A model generated the notes under the pieces. It ran no database searches and was not told the DNA's origin. It saw only the letters and a list, made by a program, of their open reading frames with translations. Positions 189-46,100 of a stretch of 51,805 nucleotides of DNA are shown piece after piece. Within the stretch, counting starts at the first letter, position 1. Every line of letters starts with the position of its first letter. The stretch covers positions 1-51,805 of the IMG/VR virus record IMGVR_UViG_3300021473_000005. One strand, written 5' to 3'. Origin of the DNA: a virus. The position numbers and the translations under genes are program-made.

Positions 189-698
189 ATGGGAGGATCA
201 CCAACTTATATGCCAACGCCGCCGCCCCCAGCGCCGGCAGACAACACTGCCTTGTACGCCATGATTGGCGCCATGCAAAAGCAGAACGTGCAAGCGGTTG
301 CTGATACTGCGGCAGCTGAAAAACAGGCGTTGATTGACGCTCAAAATAAAGCTGGAGAACAGCTTACGACCCAAGGGAATCAGCAGGCTCAGCAGTACTT
401 GGGCCGTGAGCAGGCTTACCAACAGGCGATTGATTCTCAAAATAAAAAACTTGCGAGCAAAACAGCTTCTGACATTGCGTCATCCGCTGTGGGAGCTCCT
501 ATTGACCTTGCGTCTGAGGAAGCGCAGAGAGTGTCCAATCTGGCTGGTGGCGTTGGAGTTCTTCCGACAACCGCTGCAAACTTAGCGTATTTAGATCAGT
601 CAAATACGAATCCTGCTTTGAAAAGTGTTGGAAAGACCACACTGAGCAACAAATTCACTCTGCCGCAAACCAGCGGAATTACGTTTGGAGGTTACTAA
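189..698 (+). CDS. Ala/Gln-rich probable virion protein, first of four tandem paralogues
   Basis: This 169-aa protein has a proline-rich start, a long helical Ala/Gln/Lys segment (about residues 25-110) and a conserved C-terminal tail (FTLPQTSGITFGGY). The next two genes end in the same way (FSPPTTQGLKFGGGY and FTLPVAQGLTFGGA), and the fourth ends in LKFGGA, so the four look like a tandem family. The tail codons TTT GGA GGT also form the GGAGG ribosome binding site of the next gene, whose ATG is at 700. No enzyme motif is visible. Position before the giant internal-type protein suggests a small structural or ejected component, which is inference. The start ATG has no clear Shine-Dalgarno sequence. 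Confidence 0.65.
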   Translation: MGGSPTYMPTPPPPAPADNTALYAMIGAMQKQNVQAVADTAAAEKQALIDAQNKAGEQLTTQGNQQAQQYLGREQAYQQAIDSQNKKLASKTASDIASSAVGAPIDLASEEAQRVSNLAGGVGVLPTTAANLAYLDQSNTNPALKSVGKTTLSNKFTLPQTSGITFGGY

Positions 699-699
699 T

Positions 700-1224
700 A
701 TGGGCGGAATGTTTGGCGGCGGCGGCGGCGGCGGCGGCGGGCCTGGCCCTGAGTATTATGCTCAGGTGGCTGAGAACTCTAGAATTCAAGCGGCAAATGC
801 AGCAGCAATGCAGCAGCTTCAGTCGCAGTGGGCTGAAAACGACAAATCCAGCCAGGCAAATGCAGCGCAGGCAGCAAAAAACGATGCGGCGCGGTTGGAG
901 TCTGAAAAGCAGGCAAAAATTCAGGCAGAGAACGACCTTGCTGCGCGGGCGCAAGACTCTGCAAGCCAATCGGCCTCCTCAACGCTGGCCAGTCTTAACC
1001 TGACCCAGCAAGCGGCAGATGCAGCTAAAAAACAGCAGATGCAAATATCTGGCAGTTTAGCTCCAGCTCCAACGCTTGACTCAACAGCAGCGGCAGGCGC
1101 AACTTTTCCGGTCGCAGCCGCAAAGCCAACAATTCCTAGCGCAACTGACGTTTTTCAGGCGCCACTAACAAACCAATTCTCCCCGCCGACCACGCAGGGA
1201 CTAAAATTTGGAGGAGGATACTAA
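700..1224 (+). CDS. Gly/Ala/Gln-rich probable virion protein, second tandem paralogue
   Basis: This 174-aa protein starts at ATG 700, with GGAGG at 687-691 inside the end of the previous gene; an in-frame TTG at 685 is rejected because it lies inside that binding site. The N-terminus is a poly-glycine run encoded by a GGC repeat at about 715-740. A helical Ala/Gln segment follows, then the family tail FSPPTTQGLKFGGGY. The tail's GGA GGA codons supply the ribosome binding site for the gene at 1226. No catalytic motif is seen; a short structural role is the likeliest reading. Confidence 0.65.
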   Translation: MGGMFGGGGGGGGGPGPEYYAQVAENSRIQAANAAAMQQLQSQWAENDKSSQANAAQAAKNDAARLESEKQAKIQAENDLAARAQDSASQSASSTLASLNLTQQAADAAKKQQMQISGSLAPAPTLDSTAAAGATFPVAAAKPTIPSATDVFQAPLTNQFSPPTTQGLKFGGGY

Positions 1225-1225
1225 A

Positions 1226-1789
1226 ATGAGCTGGCTATCACATGTTTTTAGCGGAGGCGGAGGCGGAGGCGATAATGGCGACGCACAACGCGCTCAAGAG
1301 GCCGCAAATGCGGCAGCAGCACAACAGGCGGCTCAACTTCAAGCGCAGCAGCAGCAGCTTGAGATGATGCGTCAACAGCAGGCGGCAGCCGCCGCTGCTG
1401 AAGCATCCGCTCAAGCAGCGCGACAGGCTGAGGCGGCTCGCCAAGCTGAAATTGCAAGGCAAGCTCAGATTGCGGCAGAGAACGCCACAGCATCGTTGCA
1501 ACAGAGCGCAGCAAATACAAAGGCTGCCGGCGCTTTGCCAGGGCTAAACCAAATTCAACAAAAATCGGACGTTAGCGTTGCCTCGTCTATCCCTTCTTTT
1601 GGAGGTGGCGCAGGAGCGCAAATCACTCCTACGGCAACCGCCGCAAATATTGGCGCTTACGGTGGCGCAAAAACGGCATCTGGCATGGGTGGCGGGGCGC
1701 TACAAAAAGACCAAAGCCTAGGCTCTGTTCCTGCGGTTAATAAGTTTACCTTACCAGTAGCCCAGGGGCTCACATTCGGAGGAGCATAA
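1226..1789 (+). CDS. Ala/Gln-rich coiled-coil probable virion protein, third tandem paralogue
   Basis: This 187-aa protein starts at ATG 1226 behind GGAGGA. After MSWLSHVF and a glycine run it has about 90 residues of almost pure Ala, Gln, Glu, Arg and Met (residues 18-105), a strong helix or coiled-coil former. A Gly/Ala-rich region and the family tail FTLPVAQGLTFGGA follow. The last codons (TTC GGA GGA GCA) again make the binding site for the next start at 1791. Its relation to the neighbours is visible; its function is not. Confidence 0.65.
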   Translation: MSWLSHVFSGGGGGGDNGDAQRAQEAANAAAAQQAAQLQAQQQQLEMMRQQQAAAAAAEASAQAARQAEAARQAEIARQAQIAAENATASLQQSAANTKAAGALPGLNQIQQKSDVSVASSIPSFGGGAGAQITPTATAANIGAYGGAKTASGMGGGALQKDQSLGSVPAVNKFTLPVAQGLTFGGA

Positions 1790-1790
1790 T

Positions 1791-2402
1791 ATGGGCAATT
1801 CTAATCCCGGCGGACCAAAGTTTGGAAGCAATGAATACTTCCGAGAGATAGCCCCTGCTGCTGTTGACCATACGCAAATTTACACAAAGTCTGGAACTCC
1901 AGATCCTCGGCCAGCTCCAGCAAAGAACTCTTCGCATTTTCTCGGTTTTATAGGCAGCGCACAAGCGCAACAGTCAGAGATGGCTAGGCAACAAGCGCAA
2001 CAGTCAGAGATGGCTAGGCAATTAGCCAACCAGCCTGCTATTAACGCTGAAAATACTGCCGCCACATCCAAACAAGACACTGCAAACCAATGGGCTGGCT
2101 CGTTGCACACGTTAATTTCAGGGCAGCAAGAAGCAGACGCGCAGTCCGTAGCTAAACAACAAACGCCTCCGCTTGTTACTGGTCAGCCGGCAACTCCTGA
2201 AATTATAGCCAATGCATCCCCTGTTTCGGCTCAAGGCGTATCTATTTCTGCTCCTGCCCAAAAAATGCAAGCTGCTGGCGGAATGATGCCGGCGGCAGCA
2301 AAAGGCGGACCGCCTCGTATAAACCAGGCTGGACCTATTCCTCAAAACGGAATGGTCAACGCTGTGGCGCCTTCCCAGGAACTTAAATTCGGAGGAGCAT
2401 AA
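1791..2402 (+). CDS. Gln/Ala/Pro-rich probable virion protein, fourth tandem paralogue
   Basis: This 203-aa protein begins at ATG 1791, two bases after the previous stop codon. It carries a duplicated ten-residue block (QAQQSEMARQ, about residues 58-77) encoded by a perfect 30-bp tandem repeat. A proline- and alanine-rich second half ends in SQELKFGGA, a shortened form of the family tail. Codons for FGGA (TTC GGA GGA GCA) give the ribosome binding site of the gene at 2404. Unlike the other three it lacks the N-[KQ]-F-[TS] part of the tail. Confidence 0.65.
   Translation: MGNSNPGGPKFGSNEYFREIAPAAVDHTQIYTKSGTPDPRPAPAKNSSHFLGFIGSAQAQQSEMARQQAQQSEMARQLANQPAINAENTAATSKQDTANQWAGSLHTLISGQQEADAQSVAKQQTPPLVTGQPATPEIIANASPVSAQGVSISAPAQKMQAAGGMMPAAAKGGPPRINQAGPIPQNGMVNAVAPSQELKFGGA
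1961..2020 (+). repeat. Perfect 30-bp tandem duplication inside a coding region
   Basis: Bases 1961-1990 and 1991-2020 are identical. The unit starts ACAAGCGCAACAGTC and ends ATGGCTAGGCA. The length is a multiple of three, so the frame is kept and ten residues are repeated. The lack of any base difference suggests a recent duplication. Confidence 0.95.
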
Positions 2403-2403
2403 C

Positions 2404-4362
2404 ATGAACGGAACGACTCAGGGCTTTGCAATGAATCCGGCGAATCCAAATGCCGGCACAGCGCTTGCAACTTTGCGCGCAATTAATTTTGGCGCAAACC
2501 CTGTGTCCTTTCATGTTGACAAACCTTGGACTATTCCCGATCCAGGCGCAATGCCGTCGTCAGCGCTCAAAGGGGCGGTTGGAGACGTTATCAACAAGGC
2601 GCTGACTGGTTATCAAAAGCGCCAGGCTGAAAAGAAAAAGGAAGACTCAGACTCCACAAAAGATTGGATGGAGTGGCAGAAATTTAAAGAAACCAAACGT
2701 CATAACGAGGAAATCGAAAAAGCTGCGATGGGTCGCATTAAATCGACGACTCCAGAGAACACATCAGATAGCGATGAGTTTTGGCGTTCAATTGGATTCG
2801 CAGGTGCTCCTGGTCGCAATTCTGAGTCTACCATCCAGGAGGGTGATTCAGATCCGGAAGATTCAAAGCCAAGCCTTTACGACGCTATCCCGCAAGCCAG
2901 TGATCCAAGCCTTAATGAGGAATACTCTTTAAAGCTAAATGTGGCCCCAACCACAGATCCCAGGATGCAGCGCAATGCCAGGCCAAATCCTGACCTGAAT
3001 TTAACTGGATCAAAAGAGCCCGTTTTGACAGTAAATGGGGGTTCTGAGGAAACGCAGAAACAGCTTTCTGAGCTTAGTAAGTCCGACCTTCCTTCCGGAC
3101 CTGGAGGCGCATCTTTTGACCTGGTCAAGCCGACGCAGCAGGGACTTCAAAGTGTTGGAGCACTTGGAGGGTTGCCTCCAATTGAAATATCCGAGGCTCA
3201 AAGAAACGAACTGCTCAATGGGCCGGCGATTAAACCTCAATACGCTCCAAGGCCAGCCCCTATCTCCCAGGCCATTCAACAGGCAGCTCAAGAGCCTGCG
3301 CTCAAAGGCATGCAGGCTCCTTCTCCCGGGCAACAACTCCCGTTTGCAAACATGTCTCCAGGCAAGGTGCCTGCGTTTATTCCTCAAAAAGACGCAGCAA
3401 AGGCGCTTTGGCTCATAAACAACTGGGAAAAGCTTGGAGGCAATCCAGACGTTATCCCAAAAAAACTACTGCCCGTAAACAAGCAAGGAATGGTGCAGAT
3501 TGATTGGGAGAATGTCGGAACGCACAATCGAGAACAGAGAGTTCGAGAAGATGAGCACCGGTTAAAGCAGGAAGAGATGAAGCAAAAATTTGAAACTGCT
3601 TCTGCCGCAAAGACAGCCTCAATTGCCATGCGCGAAGGGAACGCAGTGAACACGCATGACAGCATGAAAAATTACACCAGGGCTTCTGGTCTTCGTGCGG
3701 GTTTGGAGGCGTTTATTCCTGCGTACCTGGCGCAGCAACAGCACCCGGAAACATCCGGTGCGGCTGACGTTGATTTGATCGACAACTACGCCAGGGCCAT
3801 GTCAGGCGGCAAAGTAACGGAAGGCCAGGTGCATTTGATTGAAAAAGCCACATCGCTAAAAGACAAATTAAAGGTACTCTTTATGAAGCCAGAGGGTGGC
3901 GATATTCTTTCCCAGGGCCAACGCGACCAAATGCTGCGAGCCATGGTTGAGGCGCATAATATTAAGGCAAATGCCGCAAACTCAGTCATGGACACCGCCC
4001 GGAGGCGCATGATCAAAGAGGGCGTAAAAGACGAAGATTACCTACCTCAGTCGTTTGTTGCCGACATGATTCTAAAAACAGACGCAGAGGTTGAAAAAAT
4101 TCACTTAAAAGAAAGCGCAGATAAGCTCATTCTTGAACGCAGAAATGCGCTTGCCTCTAAGAATTTTGAAGATGCAAAAATGATGGAACCTGAGATTGAA
4201 AAGCTGCTTTCGGAGTCTGTCCATTTGCAGCAGCGTCTTATTCAAGAAAAATACTCCGGGAAACCCATTTTGGGGTACAAAAACTTCAAAGAAAAGACCC
4301 AGGGGTTTGTTGCTGGAACTGGTGGGTACAATATGGGTTACAAAGACCCTAACGCTCAATAG
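2404..4362 (+). CDS. Probable internal or structural virion protein, 652 aa
   Basis: The start ATG 2404 follows GGAGGAGC, and the gene ends two bases before the giant gene. The N-terminal 70 residues are Asn/Pro/Gly-rich. A charged helix follows (about 75-115, rich in Lys, Glu and Asp), then a long proline-rich disordered middle (about 120-320). The second half (about 325-640) is helical, with heptad-like charged segments. No enzyme motif is visible. Length, composition and position between the small repeat proteins and the polyvalent protein fit a virion protein, possibly one ejected with the DNA. That role is inferred from context only. Confidence 0.6.
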   Translation: MNGTTQGFAMNPANPNAGTALATLRAINFGANPVSFHVDKPWTIPDPGAMPSSALKGAVGDVINKALTGYQKRQAEKKKEDSDSTKDWMEWQKFKETKRHNEEIEKAAMGRIKSTTPENTSDSDEFWRSIGFAGAPGRNSESTIQEGDSDPEDSKPSLYDAIPQASDPSLNEEYSLKLNVAPTTDPRMQRNARPNPDLNLTGSKEPVLTVNGGSEETQKQLSELSKSDLPSGPGGASFDLVKPTQQGLQSVGALGGLPPIEISEAQRNELLNGPAIKPQYAPRPAPISQAIQQAAQEPALKGMQAPSPGQQLPFANMSPGKVPAFIPQKDAAKALWLINNWEKLGGNPDVIPKKLLPVNKQGMVQIDWENVGTHNREQRVREDEHRLKQEEMKQKFETASAAKTASIAMREGNAVNTHDSMKNYTRASGLRAGLEAFIPAYLAQQQHPETSGAADVDLIDNYARAMSGGKVTEGQVHLIEKATSLKDKLKVLFMKPEGGDILSQGQRDQMLRAMVEAHNIKANAANSVMDTARRRMIKEGVKDEDYLPQSFVADMILKTDAEVEKIHLKESADKLILERRNALASKNFEDAKMMEPEIEKLLSESVHLQQRLIQEKYSGKPILGYKNFKEKTQGFVAGTGGYNMGYKDPNAQ

Positions 4363-4364
4363 CC

Positions 4365-7300
4365 ATGGACGAAACAATAGCGCCTCCGGTTGCCTCCGAA
4401 GATGAGTTTGAAAAAAGGATGATGGCACTCTCTGGAGGCATTGTTCCAGGAGTTTTAGGCAAGCCCGCGGCCCAGCAATTAAAAACATCCGCGCCATCCA
4501 GCTCCCCGGCAGATGAGTTTGACCAAAAGATGTCAGCAATTTCTGCTGCGCTTGGTGAATCTACAGCTTCGACGGGTGATGGCCCGACGTTTTATGAACA
4601 AATGGCGGCAAAAGGCCCGCACGCCATGGACGAGGCTGACTGGGCTCAATTGCAGTCTGAAAAAGACCCGCACCGGATTGCTGAAATGGACAAGCACCTC
4701 AATTGGGCGCTTTCTGGCGATCAGGTAAAGATTCTGGCGCAGCATCACCGGAAAAAAGATCCTCAAATTGAAGAAGCATTAAAAGAAAAAGAACCTGGCT
4801 TTTGGTTAGGAACAGCTTGGCCGGTTGTGAAAGATGCGGCCGTTGGCGCGGCAAAGTACGGATGGCAAATAGCCAAGCCTGCCGTTGAATCGTTTGGCGC
4901 TGGTCTTGCTGAGCAGAATTACACTCCTGAGCAACAGCAGGCAGACTTTAAGGGACAAGAGGAAGTCATGCGTGCCGGCGGCGCTGCCTGGTATGATACC
5001 GGCGAAGGCATCCAGGAGCATTTGTCCAAATTTGCAAAAGCCGGGTACACCTGGTGGGACCGGGCAATGGAAAAGGCCGGCGCGATGACCCCGGCCGAGG
5101 CAGATGATCGTTTTGAAAAGCGACATGCAATCACCGCTTGGGATGCATTAAACAAGGCAAAGAATCCGTCTGAATATGCCCGGTTTGTCGAAGCACGCCG
5201 GCCACTAATCACAGGCTCAGTTGAAAGCGTTTTAGACACAGGCACTGAAGAGTCCAAAACCCCCGTCGAACAGGTTGCCAAAACGCTTAGTGCGGCAACA
5301 AGTCCCGCCGGGTACGCCCAATTTGCAAAAGCATCGGTTCCTTTGACTGCTAGGGTTGCTCAAGCCATCGTTGGCGAGCTGACCCCGAGCGTTGACGACA
5401 TTGTCGCATCTCAGGGCGTGTCCCGGGATGAGGCGCTTGCCATCAAAAAAGAGCAGGATGCCAATGTCGTTCAGTCCGCAATTAGCGACATGGTCAACGA
5501 CCTAAATAAAAACGCCCAGGTTGACCCGGCGTTAAAATCATTCACTGGGCTAGTGCTTCCTGGCGGAAATGTGTTTTCTGTTTTGGAAATTGGAGCTGCC
5601 GGCGCTTTGAAGTTTGCAAATGCTGCCGAAAATGCAGCAATTCGGGTTTCGCTTGGAATGACCAAGGCGGAGCAGCAGGCTGTTGAAGCTTTTTCCATTG
5701 GCCAAAAGGCCAGGATTGCAGCAGAAGATGCAACCAAGATGGGACCAATTGGCAAGGGTGCCACACGGGTTGCCGACATGATTGACGTTGGTGGCCAAAG
5801 GCTTGAAAAGGCGCTTGGGAACATCCCAGATCCATACAAAGGACTTCTCTCTGAGGGAATCAAAGCCGGCGGCCGTGCCGGCGTCCTGGGAGGTATTGGC
5901 GCAGCTTACGGAGAGATTACAGACCCTGAAAACCGCTGGGACGCTGCTAAAAAAGGGGCAATGCTTGGGCTTGGGCTTTCAGCGCCTCGACTCATCTCTG
6001 ACCTGGCCAAGGGAGAGGCCGCGTTAACCGGCAGAATGTTTCAGGGTGCCGCCCTGAACGCAGAATCAAGCGAGTTTACCAAGTCGCTCCTACGCGGCGG
6101 CGAAAAGATTAAACTTAGTCCAAATTGGCCAAAAACGTTAGACGCAATGGCAGGGTTTGCAAAAGCCGGCGTGGCCACCGGGGTGCGCATGGTGCCCTTG
6201 ACGTTGGCCGCGGGGCTAATGGAGGATCAGACCTGGGAAGAGCTGCAAAAGAGCTACGCAAGCGGCATGGTTTACGGCCTGGGCGGAGGGTGGCTTGGAA
6301 GAGCCATGGGTAAAGACGCTACACACGCCGCGGAGATGCGCCGGCAGATGGATTTTGATTATCAAAAAGAGGTCAAAAAGCATTCTCCGGAAACGCAGGT
6401 CCGAATGGACATGCTGCGCAGTTACGACAACGAAATCGAGCGCAGGAAAAACAACCTGTCCTGGGCGGAGAGCAATTTACAAAACACCGTCCAGGAAGTT
6501 GGTTTGGACAACGAGTTTTACGACGAGGCAGTCAAAAACGTTAAGAACGCCAAAAAATACTACGAGCAGGCTCAAAAGGCATCACCGGAAGAGCGCGTGG
6601 AGTACTCACGCCATATGGGTGAGATCTTTACGGACGCAGCAAAAGTAGCAAATGGCGTTGTCCGCGGAGGTCGCAATCTGAATATCGAGCTCTTAACCGA
6701 GGCTGAGATCGAGAACCGGATCATGCAGCGCGGAGCGTCCCAGGGGGTCACTCCCGAGTTTGCCAGGATGGCGGCGCGGCAGCGTGGCGCTTACTTTGGA
6801 ACAGACGGGGTGGTTAACCTTCCAAACGGAAATCCGGTCAAGCTGTTCGACCGGGACACAGTGGTCGTCAACCTGGACAAACTTAAGCGAAAACAAGAAT
6901 ACTCTGGTCGTTCGTTTGCTCACGTTTTTCAACACGAAATGGGCCATGCCCTGGAGGGGTTTGAGCAATACCGAGAGTTGAATAGAAAACCGCGTGAAAT
7001 CTTGTTTGGACGCAAGATTGAACTTAACGGGGAAACTGTCCACGAAGAGCCTGGAATCTACTCGGAAAACGACCTGGCTGACATGTACTTGGATACATAC
7101 ACAAAAGGAAAATCCAAAAATCAGTCCGAAGCATTCCTGAAAGAAAACGGGTTGTGGAGCTGGATAGACAATAAGCCAAACCGGAAGGAAATGGCCGAAA
7201 CCCAAAAAGAAGAAATCATCGCTGACTTGAATGCCAGGGGATTGTCTGGCGGAATTCGCTATTTTGCAAATAGTCCTGTTCAATCGGTCGTTGATTGGGT

Positions 7301-10300
7301 GACAGCCAGTCACCAGAACAACGTTCTTGCGCAATCGTTGCGAAACATTGCTGGACTTGGCGGGGAGAGTCCATTCACCAGCGAATACACCAAAGCGACG
7401 TTCAGCCCAGAAGTGTTGGAGCTCAACAAGCGGGCTCTTCAGGCTGCTAGAGATTTGAATGGCAATTTTACCGGGGTAAGGGGTCCGCTAAAGCCAAAGA
7501 TTTCGCGTCAGGACATCTTGCAAAACGAAAAGCTTCGCGAGCACTACATGACCGGAACTCCCATGTTTAAAGAGGGGTTCCTGGCCACTGTTTATGACGC
7601 GGCCGGCAACCCGGTGTACACCAGTGTTGTTCAGTCTCCTGGCGCAAAAGAGGGCGAATGGAAACATGTTGATAATGGTGACGGAACTTCCGCTATCACA
7701 CGTTCCAGGGGCTTTGGAAATATCCCTTCTGAGGTTGGCCCTGATGTCGTCATTCCGGTTGGAGGCGGAGTAAAGGTTGAGCGGAAAATCATCCTGGACG
7801 AAAATGGCAAGCCTGCCGAAAACGACAGAAAGGCCAGGAAAATACTGAGCAAAGCCAGGGGCAGGATGGTTCGTGAGGCACTGGATGGCACTCCTGACGT
7901 TGGAGCCCCAAATCGCATGAGGGCGGTGTTAGATGATGGCCTGACCTACAGGGGCACATTAACGCCATTGCAGCGGCAGGCGATTGAAAACCTGCCTGAA
8001 GGCATTGTTCCGCTTTCCATAAAAGAAAAACTGTTTGCGTTGTCCGACATGATATCAAAGGACGACGGAACGCAATTTATTGCCGACTACGCAAACCGGA
8101 TGGATGTCAACGGAAACTACCGCTCCTTTTCTCCCAAGCTAATTAAGTTCGTCCCGATTGGGCTTCATTTCTCAAAAGACGACAATCTGCTTGTTACGAC
8201 AATTTCTGTAGACGGCATCGAGGACAAGCTGGACTTGTGGAAAAAGTACATGCCAGAACGCCTGTCTCCATGGAATTACGACACGGACAAATTCATGGAA
8301 CAGTTTCATCTGTACCTGAAAAACTGGGAGGCTGGATTAGAGGACAAAACCGACCACTCAAACCTGGATTCTGACCCTCAAAAGGCCGAAATAAAAAAGA
8401 GCATCTTCAACGACCTGTTGAACATGTACGACAAGGAGACGCAGGACAAAAATCCGGACAGAACCAAGCTGAATTTAGACAAATCCAGGCTTACTCCTGA
8501 AGAGAAAGCGGACGGCCTGTCGTCTGACCCAAATACGGTTGTTCGATCCCGTCGCCTGGACTCAATTGCATCCCTCGAGGTCCATAATGGGCAAAAGATA
8601 CGCATCCCGTATCAGTACGCCAAAAACAACTGGATGGCTGAAGGTGCTCCGGAAGTGTCAGCAGGGGCAGAAGAGAAGCCGGTCGGCCCGATTGGCATCG
8701 GCCTGGGGGCTGTCGGCGGGCAGAAAGACTTCTATTCCAAGGCCGGAGAGGTGCTGCTCTCTAAAATGCCGGAACGGGCTTCCTATGAGCAACTCCGGAA
8801 TATGTTGGACCCAGCCCGCGGATCGGGCGTGAAGCGGGATGAGTTGAAGTGGAGCGGCATTCTGCCGTACATGGAGCGCGTCGCCCAAGAGAAGGGCCAA
8901 GTGTCAAAAGCGGATATCCAGAAGTTCCTCAAAGAAGGATACGGCGCCAGGTTCACCGAGGAGACGATGAGGCAGTCGCAATACGGAGAAGATCAGACAC
9001 GGTATTCTCAATGGAAGCTTCCCGGAGGCAGCAATTACCAGGAAACGGTATTGCAAATGCCTGGGGTTGACTACACATCAAGCCACTTTGGCAACGTTCC
9101 AAACTATGTTGCGCATATGCGCACACAAGACTTTGGAAATGGCAGGCTGATTGAAGAATTGCAGTCTGACTCGCATCAAGCGGCTAGGAAAAGAGGGTAC
9201 AAAAATGAACAACTTCGCGATTATAATAGGGTGCGTGAAATTGAAGCAAAAGGGCAAGCGGCAACACCTGAAGAGCGCAAGGAATGGACAGCCTTAATGA
9301 ACGCAGGAGCAATGCGTCAAGACGGCGTTGCCGACGCACCATTCCGCAAGGACTGGCCCCTTCAACTCTTCAAGCACGCACTTCAAAAAGCTGTTGCTGA
9401 CGGCAAAGAATGGGTCGGCTGGACTGGCGGTGAGGCGCAAGCTGAACGCTATGATTTGAGTAAACAGGTCAGTTCCATTGAATACCTACCAAAAACTCAG
9501 GTTCTCCGAGCGTTCAATCTTGATGGACAGGAAGCATTTGAAGAGGTTGTGCCTAAAGAGAAGATTGCCGACTATGTAGGTAAAGATGCGGCTGAAAGGC
9601 TGCTTGCGACAGAGCCGTACACAGCAGGTTCTGGCAAGCAAGTTCACGCTTTAAGGGGTGTTGACTTAAAACTCGGTGGCGAAGGGATGAGGGGCTTCTA
9701 CGACACCATCCTGCCCAATGAGATCGGCAAATACGTCAAGCAGTGGGGGGCAAATGTTGAGCCGTCTGAAATAAAGGCACGATCCGATCACTATGCTGTA
9801 GAGGAGGGGAATCAGATTTGGAATGTTGTTAATGACAACGGAGCGGTGCTTGCGACTTACAATTCAACCACTCCAGAAAGAGCTAAAGAACTGGCTCAAA
9901 ATTGGTTGGAATACAATTTAAGCAGATATCCTAACGCCACGCTTCAATCCGCAATTCAAAAAGACAATATTTCAAAAATCTGGAAGGTCGCAATCACTCC
10001 CGAGATGCGTGAAGGCGTCAAACGCGGGCAGCCGTTATTCATGGCGGAAAATAGCGCCAACGCCGACACCCACCAGGCGGAGCTGGACGCTTTCTCCGAC
10101 AAATGGAAAAAGTCAGGCGTTCGTACTTCGCCTTACATTGCTCACGGAACCGGAGACATTCGACCAGGAATGGTGATAGTGCCAAAAGAAAAGCGAAGCC
10201 AGGGCATTGGCACCCAAGTGATGGAAGACCTTGTCCGCATTGCAGACCAGCAAGGCCGGCGCATTGCCCTTACACCGTCAACAGACTTTGGAGGCACATC

Positions 10301-13300
10301 TGTGTCCAGGCTGAAGGACTTCTACTCCAGGTTTGGGTTTGTTGAAAACAAGGGGAAGAACAAAGACTTTGCGACAAAAGAAACCATGCTTCGACCTGCG
10401 GCAAAGGAAGCCATCAAGAGTCCAACTCAAGACAACCGCAACAGCTCAGAAATGCGGTTTATGTCAGAGCTGGAAGGGCAGTTTAAGCCTGTGCCAACTC
10501 AAGAAGAATTGGACGCTATGAAGGCAGAGCTGCCCAAATACGCCTCAACATTGGTAAAAATTGGAGCTTATTCATCAAGTTCTCGGCGCATAGCTATTTA
10601 TGACGTGTATCAAGGACATAAGGATGTCATTGGGTATGCGTATGTGAGGCCAAAGCCGGAAAACGATGCGCTTGAAATTGAATCTACACACATAGACGGA
10701 GAATGGAGAGGCAAAGGGTACGGACAAGCATTGTACCGAGAAATTGCCAAGTTTGCTCAAGAGCAGGGCATTTCCAAGTTAACCGCAACATCAACATCTC
10801 GCATGGCAGCAGAAGCCAGGAGTCGCATTCTTGAAACCAAGTGGAAGGGTGCAGGCTGGGACGCTGAAAGCAGAGTGCCGGCAAGCGTTCGGTTCATGTC
10901 CGAGGAGCACGCCGCGGCGCATGAGGCCGGCGATGAGGAGAAAGCCAGGAATCTAGTGCGCCAGGCAGCGGAAAAGGCCGGCTACTCCAGGAACGGAAAA
11001 CACGGCACAACGCACAGTTTTACCGTATTCAACACGTCTCGCGCAAACGTCGAGAACGACATGGGGAAAGGGTTCTACTTTTCCACATCTCCTAAAGACG
11101 TAGAGGCAAATTATGCCGGAGTAGGCCCAGACCTTACCTCCAGAATTGAAAAGCTCACTGAAACCCTTTACGACTCGATGGAAGAAAAAGAAGTCGATCA
11201 GTACGGGAGCACTGATGCCGCCTACGCTGCCGCAAAAAAACAAGCAGAGCAGGAGCTTGCTGGAAATAGCCAGCGTGTCATTGATGCTTTCATCAATTTA
11301 AAGAACCCGCTTATTCTTGGAGGAAAGGGAGAGACCACTTTTGAGGAAAACCAAGACCTTTATTCAAAATACCCAGCCGGCCAAATGGGCCAATTGATCG
11401 GTTCCATTGAAGGGGAGGGACAGCATTACAATGATATTTATGGTGCCAGGGGAGCCATTTCAAAAATAGCAGAACAGGCGTACAATGGCGAAATCACGGC
11501 GAGAGAAGTTATCAACATCATCAAAGATCAATTTTCAGACGCTACTGATCCAGACACGGGAGACATTGCAACAAATCAGATTGTCCGCCAGGTAATTGAA
11601 GACCTAGGTTTTGATGGCATTGTGGACAACACGGTAAACGAAAGGTTTGGGAAGCGCAGAAAATACGGTCAGGCAATGGCCGGCATTGATGAAAATACTC
11701 AACACATTATTGCGTTTAACCCTGAGAGCATCAAATCCGCGGACCCGTTCACATACGACGACCAGGGCAAACTGATTCCACTTTCTGAACGGTTTAACCC
11801 AAGAAAGAATGACATCCGGTTCATGGCTGAGCCCAACCGCGGCATCAATATCAACGACAGCGACATGTCCAAATACGGGTTTCCGCTTAGTAACATCGAA
11901 GCGCTTACAGAGCCAAAGTTGATTCCAAAAAGCGGTCGCGTTGCGTCGGATTTGAGCAGCATTCGATTTATGGCTGAAGACATCGCTGGAAACGGCCAAC
12001 CCGTGTCGATGCTGACTGAGTCTGCGCTCAAGGCGTTAGATGAAATTGGCGACAAAAAAAGCACTCAAGCTGGCGCCGACCTAGAGCTTAGCCCTGTTAC
12101 GTTTACCCCAAAGACCATCACTGATGAGCGTGGAATGTTCAGCATTGTCATCGGCGCCAAGCCCGGCGAGCACGGCTACAGCTTCAGAACAGCATCCGAG
12201 CTAAGAGATACGCTTGAAACAATTTCCGGCCAAAAGGCAGCAGTTGAAACGTGGGGCGAATTGCAGCTTAAAAAGCAACGCCAACTTGAGCTAATTGCTA
12301 AAGCGGACGAGTCGGCCAAGAACGCAAAGAAGCCTGAAAAAGCAGCGGAGTTTGAGGCAAAGAAGGCCGCCTATGCGGAAAAGGTTGCCTTGCTGGACAC
12401 TCAGATTGAAGAGATGCGCTCGCAGTTCCCGGAAAAAATGCAAAACATGAGCCCGGAGGATGCCGCATGGAAAGCTCAAGTCAAAAAGCTAAACAGGTCG
12501 TTTGAAGAGGTGTCACTAAAGGCAACCCCCGCTCCATTCACCGCCAATCCGCTTGGAATTCGTAGTCTGGCAGAGCTGGGAGACGCAGTGCATGACATTC
12601 TAAAATCCGATGGGTTTAACAGGATACTAAAAGACTTCTTTGACCTTGATGGTCTGGAGATTAGGCCAATTGCAGGGACTTGGCAGGGCAAGGTTGAGCC
12701 ATCGTTTGATTTGGTTCATCCTAATCTTACGTTTGACAAAGCGAAGCAAATCACTCAGCTTCTAACTCTTGCTTTTGCTCAAGACGCTGGCATTACCTAC
12801 AAGCCGTCAATTGACCTTAAAGAAGGCACTCAGGCAGTATACCTGATCCATTCTGAAAAGCTCACTGACGACCAGTTGAAGCTCGTTTTTGACAAAGCAA
12901 GAGAAGTTGGCGTAGACGTTTCTACGACAACGGACGGCAAGGGCATAAAGGCTCTAAACTTTGGAACCGAGAACTTCTTCGATAAGGTCAAGGAAATCCA
13001 AACAGCAGCATCAATTAATCAATTCCACGAAACACTTGTAGACTCAGAACTGTATGAAACTGAAAAAATATTCAAGGGAAGAGACTCGCAGAGAGTCCTC
13101 CCGAGTTGGTGGAACGCCACTTCCGGCGGACAGTCCCTACTACAACGAAGTATCGATAGCCTTCTTATCGACTACGCCAAGGCAGCAGCCGCGCAAGGCT
13201 ACATCTTCGACCCAGCCCTCTACGCCAAGCGGTACGGACTCAGCGACACCGACGCCAAGCACATAAGAGACAAGCTGTACCCGGTAGACCCAATGGCCCG

Positions 13301-14852
13301 GAGCGCCAGTCCGCTGTTGGCAGGAACCGAAATCCTGCCTGTACGGTCAACGTACACGCTGGCCGGCAAGCGGGAGACAGCCGTCCCGGACATGATTCAT
13401 GCGTTGCAGAATCGAGCGGCCAGCGATGGGGTAATCCTGCCCGGAGACTATAGCCCAAGGGCGATGGATATCATTTCGTCAGTTGTGGCCGACGAGGTTC
13501 AGCAGCACATGGCGAGGGCCGCGCTGAATCCAAAGTCTCCAAACGCAATTGGATGGTACGACGCGGCCCTGAAGCGGATGAAGGGAATGTACTCGCAACT
13601 CTTTCCGTGGCTCGAGGTTGGGTCTCCCCAGCACGACGCAGACAAGAGCCTTGTTTTCGATGCGGTTCTCGGGATTGCGTCTCAGGGCAACGACGTCTTC
13701 GAGAATGGCAAAATGGCAACTCGGGTAACGCTAATGTTAGAAAATGGCAAAACCCTTCCAGAAATTGTCACCGCACTGCATGGCACATTCGGCGATAAAA
13801 CTGCCGCGATTGAAAACAACATACTGAAATTGCACGAGTTGCTGACAAGGCATACCCCAAGTCAGCTCCGAGCCCTTTTGTTCAAAACGGACACTGTTGC
13901 AAATTGGAACAAGAATCTGAAGCAAGACACCTCCCTGTATTACAACGGGGAGCCGCTGTCTGTTGAGGGCGGCAAAAATCAAATGGTGACCGGGTTTATG
14001 GTCTTTGGGCCAAAGATCGGATCTTTCATTAATAACCTCCACGGCGACTACTCAACGCTAACCGCCGACCTTTGGTATACCAGAACGTGGAATCGAATTC
14101 TTGGTCGCTCATTTAAGTATGATCCTCTCAAGGAAGGGCATCAATTTGAGCGGTTTCAAGACTCGTTGATTGAGGAATACAACAGAAATCAGGCGCTCAA
14201 AAAAGGCAAGGAATATACCGACCGAGTGCTCATTAAAAAAGGAGTTGAAGAGCCCTACCTTTACGGAGAAGACGCGCCCAGATGGTCGAAAAAAGAATTC
14301 CACAAATTACTAGAAGACAGCGGCGCGATGCTTGAGTTTGCGGAGCACCTTGAAAAAGTATTCAGAACTGGCAGCTTCAAGGGAAAAACCGAATTACGAA
14401 GAGCCGCCAAGAATTGGGTGCAGGATCGCACAACGCCGCTTGGCGCACCTCGGGCCAGTAACGAGCGGGCGTTTCAGCAGACAACGATGGAGCAGGCTCA
14501 GGCTAGGCTTGCTCAAGCCGGGATTGTTGTTACCATTGCCGATATGCAGGCTGCCCTGTGGTTTAACGAGAAGGAATTGTTTGGCAAGTACGGGGCGGCA
14601 ACGAGCGGAGCAGAGCCAGCGGACTACGCTGACGCCGCCAAGTTTTCTTTGGACATCATCCAAGCTGGAGGTTTGTTCCAAGTGGATCGTAAAGGGGAAA
14701 CAGTGCGACTCTTGTCCGAGGCCGATGAGGCAAACCTCACTGGCGTTAAGTCTCCCAATAAGGGGCTAATGAAGCAATTGATGGAAAAAGAAAAAGCAAT
14801 CAAAGCGGCAGAAAAACTGCGAAAAGAAGCTGAAGGAGAAGACGAAGAATAA
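4365..14852 (+). CDS. Giant phage polyvalent protein (3495 aa; protease-, GNAT- and ART-like modules)
   Basis: A single 10.5-kb frame encodes a multidomain protein of the class known as phage polyvalent proteins, thought to be packaged and delivered with the DNA. Visible modules, in order: small Gly/Ala-rich, partly hydrophobic segments (about 400-650); a zinc-metalloprotease-like HEMGH (857-861) with a Glu near 949; a phage LPD-type region (about 1465-1550); a second conserved phage module with YQETVLQMPG and LIEELQSDSHQ (about 1558-1895); a GNAT-like acetyltransferase with RSQGIG (1944-1949); a second GNAT-like domain with RGKGYG (2115-2120); an ADP-ribosyltransferase-like domain from HGTTH (2213) through GFYFST and NPESIKSAD to about 2485; a charged helical linker; and a C-terminal helical domain with FGPKIGSF (from 3214). 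Modules 1891-2534 are separated by xFM[AS]E tags. Family names are recalled patterns; activities are untested. Ribosome binding is weak, so translation may be coupled to the gene upstream. Confidence 0.85.
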   Translation: MDETIAPPVASEDEFEKRMMALSGGIVPGVLGKPAAQQLKTSAPSSSPADEFDQKMSAISAALGESTASTGDGPTFYEQMAAKGPHAMDEADWAQLQSEKDPHRIAEMDKHLNWALSGDQVKILAQHHRKKDPQIEEALKEKEPGFWLGTAWPVVKDAAVGAAKYGWQIAKPAVESFGAGLAEQNYTPEQQQADFKGQEEVMRAGGAAWYDTGEGIQEHLSKFAKAGYTWWDRAMEKAGAMTPAEADDRFEKRHAITAWDALNKAKNPSEYARFVEARRPLITGSVESVLDTGTEESKTPVEQVAKTLSAATSPAGYAQFAKASVPLTARVAQAIVGELTPSVDDIVASQGVSRDEALAIKKEQDANVVQSAISDMVNDLNKNAQVDPALKSFTGLVLPGGNVFSVLEIGAAGALKFANAAENAAIRVSLGMTKAEQQAVEAFSIGQKARIAAEDATKMGPIGKGATRVADMIDVGGQRLEKALGNIPDPYKGLLSEGIKAGGRAGVLGGIGAAYGEITDPENRWDAAKKGAMLGLGLSAPRLISDLAKGEAALTGRMFQGAALNAESSEFTKSLLRGGEKIKLSPNWPKTLDAMAGFAKAGVATGVRMVPLTLAAGLMEDQTWEELQKSYASGMVYGLGGGWLGRAMGKDATHAAEMRRQMDFDYQKEVKKHSPETQVRMDMLRSYDNEIERRKNNLSWAESNLQNTVQEVGLDNEFYDEAVKNVKNAKKYYEQAQKASPEERVEYSRHMGEIFTDAAKVANGVVRGGRNLNIELLTEAEIENRIMQRGASQGVTPEFARMAARQRGAYFGTDGVVNLPNGNPVKLFDRDTVVVNLDKLKRKQEYSGRSFAHVFQHEMGHALEGFEQYRELNRKPREILFGRKIELNGETVHEEPGIYSENDLADMYLDTYTKGKSKNQSEAFLKENGLWSWIDNKPNRKEMAETQKEEIIADLNARGLSGGIRYFANSPVQSVVDWVTASHQNNVLAQSLRNIAGLGGESPFTSEYTKATFSPEVLELNKRALQAARDLNGNFTGVRGPLKPKISRQDILQNEKLREHYMTGTPMFKEGFLATVYDAAGNPVYTSVVQSPGAKEGEWKHVDNGDGTSAITRSRGFGNIPSEVGPDVVIPVGGGVKVERKIILDENGKPAENDRKARKILSKARGRMVREALDGTPDVGAPNRMRAVLDDGLTYRGTLTPLQRQAIENLPEGIVPLSIKEKLFALSDMISKDDGTQFIADYANRMDVNGNYRSFSPKLIKFVPIGLHFSKDDNLLVTTISVDGIEDKLDLWKKYMPERLSPWNYDTDKFMEQFHLYLKNWEAGLEDKTDHSNLDSDPQKAEIKKSIFNDLLNMYDKETQDKNPDRTKLNLDKSRLTPEEKADGLSSDPNTVVRSRRLDSIASLEVHNGQKIRIPYQYAKNNWMAEGAPEVSAGAEEKPVGPIGIGLGAVGGQKDFYSKAGEVLLSKMPERASYEQLRNMLDPARGSGVKRDELKWSGILPYMERVAQEKGQVSKADIQKFLKEGYGARFTEETMRQSQYGEDQTRYSQWKLPGGSNYQETVLQMPGVDYTSSHFGNVPNYVAHMRTQDFGNGRLIEELQSDSHQAARKRGYKNEQLRDYNRVREIEAKGQAATPEERKEWTALMNAGAMRQDGVADAPFRKDWPLQLFKHALQKAVADGKEWVGWTGGEAQAERYDLSKQVSSIEYLPKTQVLRAFNLDGQEAFEEVVPKEKIADYVGKDAAERLLATEPYTAGSGKQVHALRGVDLKLGGEGMRGFYDTILPNEIGKYVKQWGANVEPSEIKARSDHYAVEEGNQIWNVVNDNGAVLATYNSTTPERAKELAQNWLEYNLSRYPNATLQSAIQKDNISKIWKVAITPEMREGVKRGQPLFMAENSANADTHQAELDAFSDKWKKSGVRTSPYIAHGTGDIRPGMVIVPKEKRSQGIGTQVMEDLVRIADQQGRRIALTPSTDFGGTSVSRLKDFYSRFGFVENKGKNKDFATKETMLRPAAKEAIKSPTQDNRNSSEMRFMSELEGQFKPVPTQEELDAMKAELPKYASTLVKIGAYSSSSRRIAIYDVYQGHKDVIGYAYVRPKPENDALEIESTHIDGEWRGKGYGQALYREIAKFAQEQGISKLTATSTSRMAAEARSRILETKWKGAGWDAESRVPASVRFMSEEHAAAHEAGDEEKARNLVRQAAEKAGYSRNGKHGTTHSFTVFNTSRANVENDMGKGFYFSTSPKDVEANYAGVGPDLTSRIEKLTETLYDSMEEKEVDQYGSTDAAYAAAKKQAEQELAGNSQRVIDAFINLKNPLILGGKGETTFEENQDLYSKYPAGQMGQLIGSIEGEGQHYNDIYGARGAISKIAEQAYNGEITAREVINIIKDQFSDATDPDTGDIATNQIVRQVIEDLGFDGIVDNTVNERFGKRRKYGQAMAGIDENTQHIIAFNPESIKSADPFTYDDQGKLIPLSERFNPRKNDIRFMAEPNRGININDSDMSKYGFPLSNIEALTEPKLIPKSGRVASDLSSIRFMAEDIAGNGQPVSMLTESALKALDEIGDKKSTQAGADLELSPVTFTPKTITDERGMFSIVIGAKPGEHGYSFRTASELRDTLETISGQKAAVETWGELQLKKQRQLELIAKADESAKNAKKPEKAAEFEAKKAAYAEKVALLDTQIEEMRSQFPEKMQNMSPEDAAWKAQVKKLNRSFEEVSLKATPAPFTANPLGIRSLAELGDAVHDILKSDGFNRILKDFFDLDGLEIRPIAGTWQGKVEPSFDLVHPNLTFDKAKQITQLLTLAFAQDAGITYKPSIDLKEGTQAVYLIHSEKLTDDQLKLVFDKAREVGVDVSTTTDGKGIKALNFGTENFFDKVKEIQTAASINQFHETLVDSELYETEKIFKGRDSQRVLPSWWNATSGGQSLLQRSIDSLLIDYAKAAAAQGYIFDPALYAKRYGLSDTDAKHIRDKLYPVDPMARSASPLLAGTEILPVRSTYTLAGKRETAVPDMIHALQNRAASDGVILPGDYSPRAMDIISSVVADEVQQHMARAALNPKSPNAIGWYDAALKRMKGMYSQLFPWLEVGSPQHDADKSLVFDAVLGIASQGNDVFENGKMATRVTLMLENGKTLPEIVTALHGTFGDKTAAIENNILKLHELLTRHTPSQLRALLFKTDTVANWNKNLKQDTSLYYNGEPLSVEGGKNQMVTGFMVFGPKIGSFINNLHGDYSTLTADLWYTRTWNRILGRSFKYDPLKEGHQFERFQDSLIEEYNRNQALKKGKEYTDRVLIKKGVEEPYLYGEDAPRWSKKEFHKLLEDSGAMLEFAEHLEKVFRTGSFKGKTELRRAAKNWVQDRTTPLGAPRASNERAFQQTTMEQAQARLAQAGIVVTIADMQAALWFNEKELFGKYGAATSGAEPADYADAAKFSLDIIQAGGLFQVDRKGETVRLLSEADEANLTGVKSPNKGLMKQLMEKEKAIKAAEKLRKEAEGEDEE

Positions 14853-33468: not shown

Positions 33469-33543
33469 TGGAGCCGCAAGTCAGGATTGAACTGACGACC
33501 TGAGCTTTACAAAAGCCCTGCTCTACCACTGAGCTATCACGGC
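33469..33543 (-). tRNA. tRNA-Thr (anticodon UGU)
   Basis: On the minus strand, GCCGUGA pairs with UUGCGGC (with two wobble pairs) as acceptor stem. The D-arm AGCUCAGUGGUAGAGC is standard, the anticodon stem GGGCU/AGCUC closes the loop UUUGUAA (anticodon UGU), and the T-arm is GUCAG-UUCAAUC-CUGAC. The CCA end is encoded. It lies 5 bp from the next tRNA, also on the minus strand, opposite to all protein genes. Confidence 0.9.
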
Positions 33544-33548
33544 AAAAT

Positions 33549-33623
33549 TGGTGGCGGGGGGTGGGATTGAACCACCGACCTTCTGGTTATGAGCCAGACG
33601 AGCTACCACTGCTCCACCCCGCT
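33549..33623 (-). tRNA. Initiator-like tRNA-Met (anticodon CAU)
   Basis: Read on the minus strand this is a full cloverleaf: GCGGGG/CCCCGC acceptor (positions 2-7 and 66-71), D-arm GAGC-AGUGGUA-GCUC, anticodon arm UCUGG-CUCAUAA-CCAGA, T-arm GGUGG-UUCAAUC-CCACC, and an encoded CCA end. Position 1 is A and position 72 is C, so the first pair is mismatched, as in bacterial initiator tRNA. The A11:U24 pair is also an initiator mark. Only two of the three usual G:C pairs at the anticodon stem are present, since pair 29:41 is U:A. Confidence 0.88.
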
Positions 33624-39064: not shown

Positions 39065-40078
39065 ATGAGCACGACACGACTTGAAGACATTACCCTCAAC
39101 GCACTGGATTCGCCTAATCCATTCAACACGGCGCCAAAGCCAACGCTGAAGAATGGAAAGCCAATTCCGGCGCCGGTCCCAGAAACGCCAGCTCCGGCAC
39201 TATTGGACGAAGATGCAAAGCGCGGCCCTGGCCGGCCTCGGCAAACTCCAATCCCAGACTCGTCCATTCCCAAGCGTAAGCCAGGACGCCCGCCAAAGGC
39301 ATCCGCAGATGCAATTGAGATCAGCCTTGAGGACATTGAGGCGCCGGTGTTTGAGAACCCAATTGCTGAAACGAGAAGCCAGGCCGGCTCTCCGAATTAC
39401 CGCGTCGAGTGGCCAGGCCGTGACGTTTTTGTCGGGTTTCACTGCAACTTTGACACAAACGTCGCCACGGCTTTCGGGTTGCTGGCGCTTGCATTGGACT
39501 TTGGCAAAGACAAGATTCGATTCGACTACGCAACAGACCCTGATCCTAACGAGGCCAAGAACCAGCTTGTTGGGTTGTTCCTGCAAACCGACGCGCCTTG
39601 GTTGCTTATGGTCGGCAATGATATCGTTCCGGCAATTGGACGGGCGCCGTTTACCCGTCGCAAATTGGCCCTGCCTGCTTCTGTCCAGGACAATGTCATC
39701 AACCGCCACGTTCTTCACCGGCTCATGGGCGCTGGTCGAAAGCTGGTGGGCGCCTCTTATTTCGGCAAACAGGCTGGCGCCGCTGTCGCGTGCGGTCACC
39801 CTAACGCGGTGGCCCTGACGCGGCAGCACGCAGAGGCGGTGCATCCGGTAGACTGGATCGGTTCCGGAATGCTGCTCATTCACCGTCGCGTTTTTGAAGA
39901 CATTGAAGCAACCGACCCAAGCATCCGACCCAATCGCCCAAACGCGCCCCTGGAGTTTTTTAAAGGCGACGCCGCATTCTGTGCTTTGGCTCGGAAGGCT
40001 GGCCATCAGTCCTACTGCGATTTCGGGATTCCGGTTTACAACGTTGGGCGGCACGCGTTTGGGGGCGGGAATGTATGA
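39065..40078 (+). CDS. GT-A-like glycosyltransferase with two AT-hook motifs
   Basis: Residues 110-337 resemble phage GT-A family proteins: FVGFHCNFDTNVATAFGLL, a substrate segment near WLLMVGNDIVP (about 179-189), VDWIGSGMLLIHRRV and a late GDAAFCALARKAGH. The usual D-x-D is replaced by G-N-D. The N-terminal 100 residues are Pro-rich and hold two AT-hook-like motifs, RGPGRPRQ (53-60) and KPGRPPK (about 73-79), which bind the minor groove of AT-rich DNA in other proteins. Lying between scaffold and capsid, it may glycosylate a virion protein or DNA base; the target is unknown. Confidence 0.7.
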   Translation: MSTTRLEDITLNALDSPNPFNTAPKPTLKNGKPIPAPVPETPAPALLDEDAKRGPGRPRQTPIPDSSIPKRKPGRPPKASADAIEISLEDIEAPVFENPIAETRSQAGSPNYRVEWPGRDVFVGFHCNFDTNVATAFGLLALALDFGKDKIRFDYATDPDPNEAKNQLVGLFLQTDAPWLLMVGNDIVPAIGRAPFTRRKLALPASVQDNVINRHVLHRLMGAGRKLVGASYFGKQAGAAVACGHPNAVALTRQHAEAVHPVDWIGSGMLLIHRRVFEDIEATDPSIRPNRPNAPLEFFKGDAAFCALARKAGHQSYCDFGIPVYNVGRHAFGGGNV

Positions 40079-43178: not shown

Positions 43179-46100
43179 ATGTCATGCGACTGTAATTCTG
43201 GAGGGGGAGACGCCTACAACAACTTCTGCAACGCGGATATTCCTTATCCGAGCGTCTCGCATGAGTCAGTGCCGTCCATGATGGACAATCTGACTTTGGC
43301 TCTGTACGGCATCATTCAGAAGGATGTTTCTTCGGGGAAGGTGAAATGGATCATTCCTTGTGATCCGACAAACTCAGCAACTGTCTTTGGCATTACCAGA
43401 AACGCTAACGAAGGGCTCATGTGCTACTTCATTCGGGCGTTCCAGGACACTCAAGCGGTGACATTCATTCCTGCTGGCCAGTACGGGCAGATTTTGAGCT
43501 CTGCTGGCACAAACTACCTGGCTTGGGTCACGCCGGCGGCTGGCAACGTTCCTGGAGCTCTAGTACAACGCGACAGCAGCGGGAACTTCTCCGCATCGGT
43601 TGTCTCCGCAAATCTTAACGGGTCTCTGCAAGGCGGATTCCCTGGATCTCTGGTTTACCAGTCCGATTCAACTCACACGGCATACTTGTCGGTTGGATCT
43701 CTGAACCAGGTGCTGCTCAGCAACGGCACGCTCCCCACCTGGGCAACTTTGGCCGGATCTGCTTACGTTGACACAACCAATGCGTCAAACATTAGCAGCG
43801 GGACGCTTCCGGCTGGAAGGCTTCCGGCATTCTCGGGAGAGGTAACCTCCTCGATTGGCTCGGCTGTTTTAGCGCTGACTCCGACCGGCGTGTCAGCCGG
43901 CGCGTACAACGTCATTCAGTCCGGCGTCGCCAGGGTGCCACAGGTCACCGTTGATTCCAAGGGGCGCCTGTCAAATGTCACGATGGTTGCGCTCGCCGCT
44001 TCTGCGGTGACAGACACAACCAACGCGACGAATATTTCGTCCGGCACGCTCGCGGCAGGGCGTCTTCCTGCCTCCGGAGCAACCGCGGCTACATACGGCG
44101 CCACCACGCCTCAATTTTTGACTGTCACGGTTGATACTTACGGTCGCATTACTGCGATTTCCAAGCAGTCCGATTATGTGGCCTACACGCTACCAACGGC
44201 GACTGCGTCTGTATTGGGCGGCGTCAAGATTGGATCAAATTTGACAATCACTGGCGGGGTTCTTTCTGCTGACGCAACGCCCCTTCCAATCGCGACGGCA
44301 AGCGTCTTGGGCGGCATTAAAGTTGGGTCAAATCTGACAATCAACGCAGTCAGCGGAGTGCTTTCCGCCGACGCCACGCCGCTACCAATTGCAACGGCAA
44401 GTGTTTTAGGCGGAATTAAAGTTGGGTCAAATCTGACAATCAACGCAGTCAGCGGAGTTCTGAGCGCAAATGCAACTCCGCTACTACCGGCGACAACGAG
44501 CGCCTTGGGTGGCGTAATTGTGGGCAATGGGCTCTCTGTCTCTGGAACTGGACTGCTGTCGGTTTTGACAGGCCCAGGAACAATTGTCACAACGTTTACA
44601 GGGAACGGATCAACGCTCATTTTTGGAACGTTGAATGGGTTCATTTCAACTGACCCTCAAGGCTACATTGTCTCGGTTGGCGGCATTGATCAGCGTCCAA
44701 CGACTGATTTTACAATCCAAGCTGTTCTTGCAACTGGGAATATTGTCTTTGCTACCGCTCCACCTGCCGGCGCCACCATCCTGGTGCGTTCCATCAAGGC
44801 TGCAAGCAGTCAAAATGCCACGCAGCTTCAAGGAAATCCAATTTCAAGCACAACTCCAATTGGAGATCAGTACTTGGGTTGGGATGTGGGAACGAACACT
44901 TGGGCGCCGAGGGAAGTCGCAACGGGAGATGTTACTGGGTTGACGGCAGCCTTGGACGGAAAGACGCCAACAACACGAACAATCACGGCGGGAACTGGGC
45001 TCACAGGTGGCGGAAATTTAACTGCCGACAGGACGCTTGCTGTCTCTTACGGGACTACTTCCGGAACCGCGGCCCAGGGGAATGACTCTAGGCTGAGTGA
45101 TTCTCGGACGCCGACGGCGCACGCATCAACTCATCAGTCTGGTGGGTCTGACCAAATCACGTCGCTAGCTTTGACGACAGGAACCGTTTCTACGGCTCCA
45201 GGAGCCTCAACCGACATTGTCAACAAGCTCTACGCAGACTCAATCGCATCCGGCGTTAATTTCCATGACGCTTGCGATTATGGAACAATAGCAGCGCTTG
45301 TTCCGGCGGCTAACTATAATCAGCCAGGCGGGGCTGGCGTTGGAGTCCTGGCGACTCTTACGGGAGCTCTAAACACGGCGCTACAGGTTGACGGGGTGAC
45401 AGTGGCAGTGGGGAAACGTATCCTGGTTAAAAACCAGGCAAGCTCAATCCAGAACGGGATCTACAACGTCACAAGGCAGGGCGACGGGACAACTTTGCCA
45501 TACATCCTGACAAGGGCCGCTGATTACGATACGAGCGGCACGGGAACAAATGAAGTTGCTGCCGGCGATTTCATCTTGGTCTTGGGTGGTACAATTGCAA
45601 ACACCGCCTGGGTTCAACAGACCGCCGCTCCAATTGTGTTTGGAACGAGCAACATTTCGTTTATCCAATTTGCTGCTGCATCGGGTGGCGTTACATCGTT
45701 TTCCGGAGGAACAACAGGGCTAACTCCGTCGTCGGCAACAACGGGCGCTGTGTCTTTAGCCGGAACTTTGACGGTGGCAAATGGCGGGACGGGAGCAATA
45801 ACACTTACAGGTCTCGTTAAGGGAACTGGCACAACAGCAATGATTGCAGCCACAGCGGGAACAGATTATGTTGTTCCAAGTGGAAGCATTACCGGCAATG
45901 CCGCAACGGCTACTACCGCCGCCGGGCTTAGTGCAACATTAGCAGTCGGTTCGGGCGGGACTGGACTCGCAACAACGCCAGCAAATGGACAGATTGATAT
46001 TGGCAACGGCACCGGGTTTACTCGGGCAACGCTGACGGCTGGCTCGAATATTAGCATCACAAATACGGCTGGCGCGATTAGCATTGCTTCAACGGCTACA

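Follow-up and report, generated by a model that had tools for sequence, protein, structure and literature searches.

Four consecutive genes of an uncultivated phage end in a Phe-Gly-Gly tail whose codons also supply GGAGG directly upstream of the next ATG. The array lies in the IMG/VR virus record IMGVR_UViG_3300021473_000005, the 51,805 bases of which were analyzed as a whole and are hereafter called the window. We consider it likely, with a rough probability of 0.78, that two codes are written on the same bases, namely a protein-level tail and an RNA-level Shine-Dalgarno (SD) sequence for the next cistron. Comparison with relatives supports two separate pressures, the function of the protein preserving the peptide and translation of the following gene governing which codons spell it, since tails far from the next start keep FGG but drift to GGT or GGC, whereas tails near it keep GGA.

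All four genes are on the plus strand, and each reads TTY GGA GG at its end, as the preliminary description had claimed. Tailed gene 1 (189 to 698, 169 aa) begins with MGGSPTY and ends with NKFTLPQTSGITFGGY; its Phe-Gly-Gly codons (684 to 692) are TTT (684-686) and GGA GGT (687-692), with GGAGG at 687-691, and are followed by TAC, the stop codon TAA (696-698), a single T, and ATG at 700. Its start at 189 was favored over the alternative at 210, and M1-G2-G3 was invariant across 41 aligned members. Tailed gene 2 (700 to 1224, 174 aa; ending QFSPPTTQGLKFGGGY) encodes the tail at 1207 to 1218 by TTT (1207-1209) and GGA GGA GGA (1210-1218), after which TAC, TAA, A, and ATG at 1226 follow. The extra glycine (FGGGY) creates two overlapping GGAGG sequences, the second of which (1213-1217) ends 8 nt before the ATG. 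Tailed gene 3 (1226 to 1789, 187 aa; ending NKFTLPVAQGLTFGGA) has TTC (1775-1777) and GGA GGA (1778-1783) at 1775 to 1783, with GGAGG at 1778-1782, then GCA, TAA, T, and ATG at 1791. Tailed gene 4 (1791 to 2402, 203 aa; ending VNAVAPSQELKFGGA) has TTC (2388-2390) and GGA GGA (2391-2396) at 2388 to 2396, with GGAGG at 2391-2395, then GCA, TAA, C, and ATG at 2404. At all four junctions, the next ATG is preceded by a GGAGG ending exactly 8 nt upstream, a short distance that had been put at about 10 bases, and the start lies +1 nt from the stop. Because GGA made up only 26.8% of the 899 glycine codons in 14 window genes, simple arithmetic gives p of about 0.005 for four GGA codons out of four by chance.

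Relative loci were collected with the portal (best 80 of 248), the terminase (best 80 of 94), and, as an alignment query, a conserved 128-aa gene upstream of the array (best 80 of 185 further loci). In addition, a codon-neutral DNA scan, in which both glycines were written GGN, was run for the pattern F..P...G[LIV].FGG.-stop and matched at least 119 stretches; 129 distinct contexts remained from the matches listed once two with an open frame below 70 aa had been dropped. A broader set comprised 224 tails, a few of them chance matches, and 195 of these were kept in a stricter set defined by a tighter motif and a next open reading frame (ORF) within 90 nt.

Codon choice followed the spacing to the next start. 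Among the 129 contexts, ATG lay at -1 to +2 from the stop codon in 66, and the first glycine of the tail was GGA in 63 of these, compared with 10/48 at +3 to +5 and 3/15 at +12 or more. When the spacing from GGNGG to ATG was measured in the 224 tails, GGA was used by 102/114 at 6-9 nt, 6/23 at 10 nt, and 6/26 at 11 nt (12/49 for 10-11 nt pooled). In the stricter set, GGA was found in 97 of 106 tails whose GGNGG was separated by 9 nt or less from the following ATG vs 19 of 89 farther away. Two rows, window gene 2 and one tail in locus L195, were classed as far by their first GGAGG, yet an extra glycine gives each a second one at 8 nt. The difference was present both where the next ORF was shorter than 400 aa (62/67 near vs 6/31 far) and where it was 400 aa or longer (30/35 near vs 12/49 far). 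One related tail reads GGT GGA with no start for 72-73 nt (L279, L286, L307, L322, and L355) and GGA GGA where ATG follows at +4 (L275, L288, and L308). GGAGG is complementary to the anti-SD core, and the codon choice is spacing dependent, both as expected of an SD. These results bear out the two-level constraint that had been claimed, neighboring control glycines being free of bias, and the proposed check on the codons of tails without a near start came out for both pressures, with the peptide kept and GGA lost. GGA was also rarer in far tails than in the bodies of their own genes (44%), as if an out-of-place GGAGG were avoided, or through a lineage effect.

Tail and SD fall together without exception in the window, a pattern that would also be seen if the SD had come first and Phe-Gly-Gly were a by-product of its in-frame reading. 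We regard this order of events as extremely unlikely, given that 70 of the 89 far tails keep FGG with codons other than GGA and that the motif reaches some 13 residues beyond the SD on its upstream side. GGA might likewise arise without selection, through codon bias or recent tandem duplication: 107 of 130 tailed-gene bodies form one family, GGA is the commonest glycine codon in these bodies (43-44%), and strict pairwise testing, confined to the last junction, was not significant (p = 0.29). However, the glycine of GLxF, 12 nt upstream, which served as an internal control, drifts, being GGA in 27/66 of the -1 to +2 class vs 63/66 for the first tail glycine. Discordant pairs of these two glycines were 36 to 0 in that class and 18 to 0 by clusters at 60% identity, and the other two classes were unbiased. 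With the same clusters as units, GGA prevailed in 33/34 of the -1 to +2 class vs 7/19 of the others (Fisher, 2e-6), and the first glycine of the N-terminal MGG was GGA in 32/75. Within the 24 records holding both near and far tails, GGA was more frequent near in 18, equal in 6, and never reversed; by 12 lineages, 7 were for, 5 were ties, and none was reversed (p = 0.016). Together with the sharp drop of GGA from spacing 9 to 10, these contrasts make codon bias or duplication an improbable source of the pattern.

The use of SD sequences elsewhere points in the same direction as the two-code reading. Among 43 ATG starts of the window chosen from the ORF list, an SD consensus match of at least 5 nt preceded 4/4 starts after tails and 4/39 other rows (210, the alternative start of gene 1; 27510; 28267; and 42691), with a single 4-nt match among the other starts at 43179; most other window genes thus lack an SD, as had been stated. 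In relatives, where starts were assigned by script, tight junctions (-1 to +2) had a 5-nt SD at 82/86 after tails vs 20/409 elsewhere. By start class, an SD was present at 0/39 for the portal, 3/49 for the 128-aa gene, 69/75 for a tailed gene after a tail, 30/63 for the ~600-aa gene after the array, and 23/87 for first tailed genes, some rows of which are misassigned. Across gaps of 17-90 nt, it was found at 20/26 after tails, 10/27 for first tailed genes, and 1/204 elsewhere, and long gaps after tails carry an intergenic AAGGAG or AAAGGA. Peptide conservation, spacing-dependent codons, and replacement by an intergenic SD are all visible in the sequences. Starts elsewhere in these phages have A/T-rich sequence ahead of them, and selection could have acted on A-richness or unstructured RNA rather than on SD pairing; this seems unlikely, as A at -11 reaches just 0.40 in other junctions, the long gaps hold AAGGAG or AAAGGA and not plain A, and the non-GGA codons at spacing 6-9 include 4/12 GGG, which could still pair through G-U. 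A phage-encoded bS21 was considered as a cause of SD use and rejected (0/44 records). Additionally, the tails at spacing 19 (L216, L217, and L315) have after them a CCTCC that is complementary to the GGAGG of the same tail, which may form a hairpin masking the SD or be a chance occurrence.

The tail consensus, NxFxxPxxxG[LIV]x[FL]GGx, is shared by many relatives irrespective of the downstream sequence, and protein function would therefore explain it; the Gly-Gly stands at the extreme C-terminus, followed by 0-3 variable residues. The preliminary description had extended the motif upstream as FT.P...GL.FGG, which applies to three window genes (KFTLPQTSGITFGGY, QFSPPTTQGLKFGGGY, and KFTLPVAQGLTFGGA) and not to gene 4, whose tail lacks the FxxP part. 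It had also called the four genes paralogues. With the last 25 residues clipped, the bodies of the genes at 700 and 1226 match one another, that of the gene at 189 falls in a large family, and that of the gene at 1791 has no detectable relative in the set, so that the label holds only in part. The tail-clipped bodies outside the one large family form 14 small clusters, and the 41 aligned members all share the P and GG of the C-terminus as well as the N-terminal MGG. No convincing PHROG match was obtained for the tailed family, two families being hit by 1/41 members each. Relatives hold one to about four tailed genes each; the large arrays of L192 and L198 have about four, and L198 carries longer tail variants with IQIGDxQ preceding KFGG or KLGG. 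Other FGG endings in the window (39065-40078 and opposite-strand ORFs) look like chance and were set aside; the 337-aa gene at 39065-40078 ends in FGGGNV, overlaps the next ATG, lacks FxxP, and is probably unrelated.

An AlphaFold2 (AF2) model was made for gene 1, in which a helix spans residues 20-99 and confidence is very low for most residues from 121 on, including the tail (predicted local distance difference test, pLDDT, <50 at 121-128, 130-155, 157-160, and 167-169). The tail thus probably sits on a disordered linker, although low pLDDT is no more than suggestive of disorder. This architecture, together with the gene neighborhood, suggests that the tail is a candidate docking tag to a shared virion partner, and the assembly or encapsidation tag that had been proposed may be considered on the same two grounds. 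Encapsulin cargo-loading peptides are short C-terminal motifs on a flexible linker, common to several cargo proteins. The tailed proteins likewise appear to have a C-terminal motif on a predicted disordered linker, a likeness of architecture; the encapsulin peptides bind the inner surface of an HK97-fold shell. Since Gly-Gly followed by 0-3 variable residues is found at the extreme C-terminus, the tail might instead mark the protein for processing or conjugation, with cleavage behind Gly-Gly and loss of one residue. We find this very doubtful, as no protease or ligase is linked to the tail and the conserved FxxP part exceeds what a simple GG site needs.

In the mechanism that we propose for the two codes, each small protein of the virion module would consist of a long helix, a probably disordered linker, and the short C-terminal motif, which may dock these proteins to one common partner in the assembly of the head or the ejection machine. 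Because the tail fixes GGNGG right before the stop codon, the choice of GGA as the first glycine would create GGAGG at a spacing of 6-9 nt from the following ATG, where it could serve as the SD of the next cistron. The terminating ribosome would thereby be helped to re-initiate 1-2 nt past the stop, which is the most likely route, and re-initiation would lead to array proteins made at coupled levels. Stop and start codons lie a few nucleotides apart or overlap, as expected for re-initiation, at the window junctions (+1 nt) and in the 66 contexts at -1 to +2. From sequence patterns of this kind, we infer the SD function in the cell, the coupling, and the docking role.

Related work by Eyre-Walker is cited in a 2009 paper on SD sequences overlapping upstream genes. 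According to that paper (PMC2784483), when one gene follows closely on another, its SD overlaps and constrains the coding sequence of the first; the effect described there is genome-wide and statistical, whereas in the window phages one conserved peptide repeatedly supplies GGNGG within an array, and SDs are rare at the other starts of these genomes. Intragenic SDs aid re-initiation, with effects ranging from none to essential and opposite in one pair, according to a 2019 study (PMC6728339). The termination-reinitiation systems in that study and in Huber et al. 2023 (PMC10666635) share with the array a short gene distance, an SD within the upstream gene, and distance dependence; they mostly involve overlapping genes, whereas the array often has a distance of +1 nt. 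SDs inside upstream genes are already known, and what looks new is that an array obtains them from a conserved peptide. No literature on this tail was found in a partial collection, in which the motif letters themselves were not queried. The array provides a natural experiment for dual coding, as the same peptide is found whether or not a start lies close behind it, and the synonymous codons that spell it track the spacing. The short tail also flags an array of virion proteins in uncultivated phages and is a candidate signal for docking or packaging; SD use, scarce in these phages overall, clusters in one module.

Several points weigh against the two-code reading. In phylogenetically independent pairs on the tree of the gene following the array, restricted to the last junction, 6 were for, 2 against, and 4 tied, and one lineage with GGC GGG dominates the +3/+4 class. 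SD matches are not exclusive to the array: among 991 starts without a tail preceding or inside, taken over gaps of at most 90 nt, 54 show a 5-nt match, and hence SD use is concentrated in the tailed-gene module, not exclusive to it; many of these 54 are starts of MGG-starting genes of the same module. Neither sequence nor fold searches linked the module to a known ejection machine. Moreover, an accessible anti-SD in the ribosomes of the host is not assured. The sole hint of Bacteroidota is a 4.3-kb contig in one Chitinophagaceae metagenome-assembled genome (MAG); it was the only match of the 128-aa gene among 396 order-level and 395 phylum-level genomes, and the portal gave none in 294 family-level genomes, where an empty result is uninformative. 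The best matches of ParB and AAA_24 are spread over many hosts. Bacteroidia ribosomes are reported (PMC9976891) to be blind to SDs, which is relevant only if the host belongs to Bacteroidota.

A more speculative and rather doubtful extension is that SD pairing is near-private to this one virion-protein module, which would build its SD from tail codons or, across long gaps, from intergenic AAGGAG or AAAGGA, and would be under module-specific translation control, possibly by re-initiation. If true, such control would operate in hosts where most starts do without an SD and, if the host belongs to Bacteroidota, where ribosomes reportedly ignore SDs.

The array is followed by a 652-aa gene (2404 to 4362, plus strand), mainly helical in its AF2 model, and by a gene for a 3495-aa polyvalent protein (4365 to 14852, plus strand) with ART-PolyVal and GNAT domains, which comes after the module and is probably carried in the virion. 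Homologues of the 652-aa gene follow the array in relatives and were found in 12/50 records, all 12 having at least one gene ending in FGG or LGG plus one residue upstream; a scan for close relatives of this gene gave none, whereas the portal and terminase scans did. The order is a ~300-aa MGG gene, tailed genes, and a ~600-aa gene, followed in the window by the giant ART-PolyVal/GNAT gene. The window thus runs from small (169-203 aa, four genes) to medium (652 aa) and very large (3495 aa), with tailed genes and then the medium gene in 12 relatives. The same small, medium, and very large order is given for T7/P22-type ejection operons in a review (PMC8954989), and the 652-aa gene would, by gene order only, occupy the place of the middle ejection gene in T7-type phages. 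These operons have one small gene, whereas the window module has several tailed ones, and no homology to their ejection proteins was detectable: no confident PHROG, Pfam, PDB, or fold match was obtained, the 652-aa model being of moderate confidence, and its fold search returned no ejection protein among the matches, an absence that excludes nothing. Predicted membrane segments as in gp14-like proteins are almost lacking in tailed proteins (19-residue hydropathy >1.6 in 1/130), and a C-terminal hydrophobic segment was seen in 39/117 untailed ORFs of 230-460 aa starting with MG[GSA], a mixed set.

Searches of the cultured-phage collection with the portal, tailed, 712-aa, and 128-aa proteins yielded no relatives. 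In relatives from the virus records, genes of 712, ~80, 128, and ~300 aa lie ahead of the array; as the left end of the window has just a fragment in that place, this record is probably short of a few kb there. Loci L003 and L006 belong to one record (IMGVR_UViG_3300020229_000001, 94,385 bases) with two portal genes, one sharing 100% and the other 79% identity with the window portal, and this record may therefore join two phages. Finally, the window carries tRNA-Thr and tRNA-Met genes at 33469-33623 on the minus strand.

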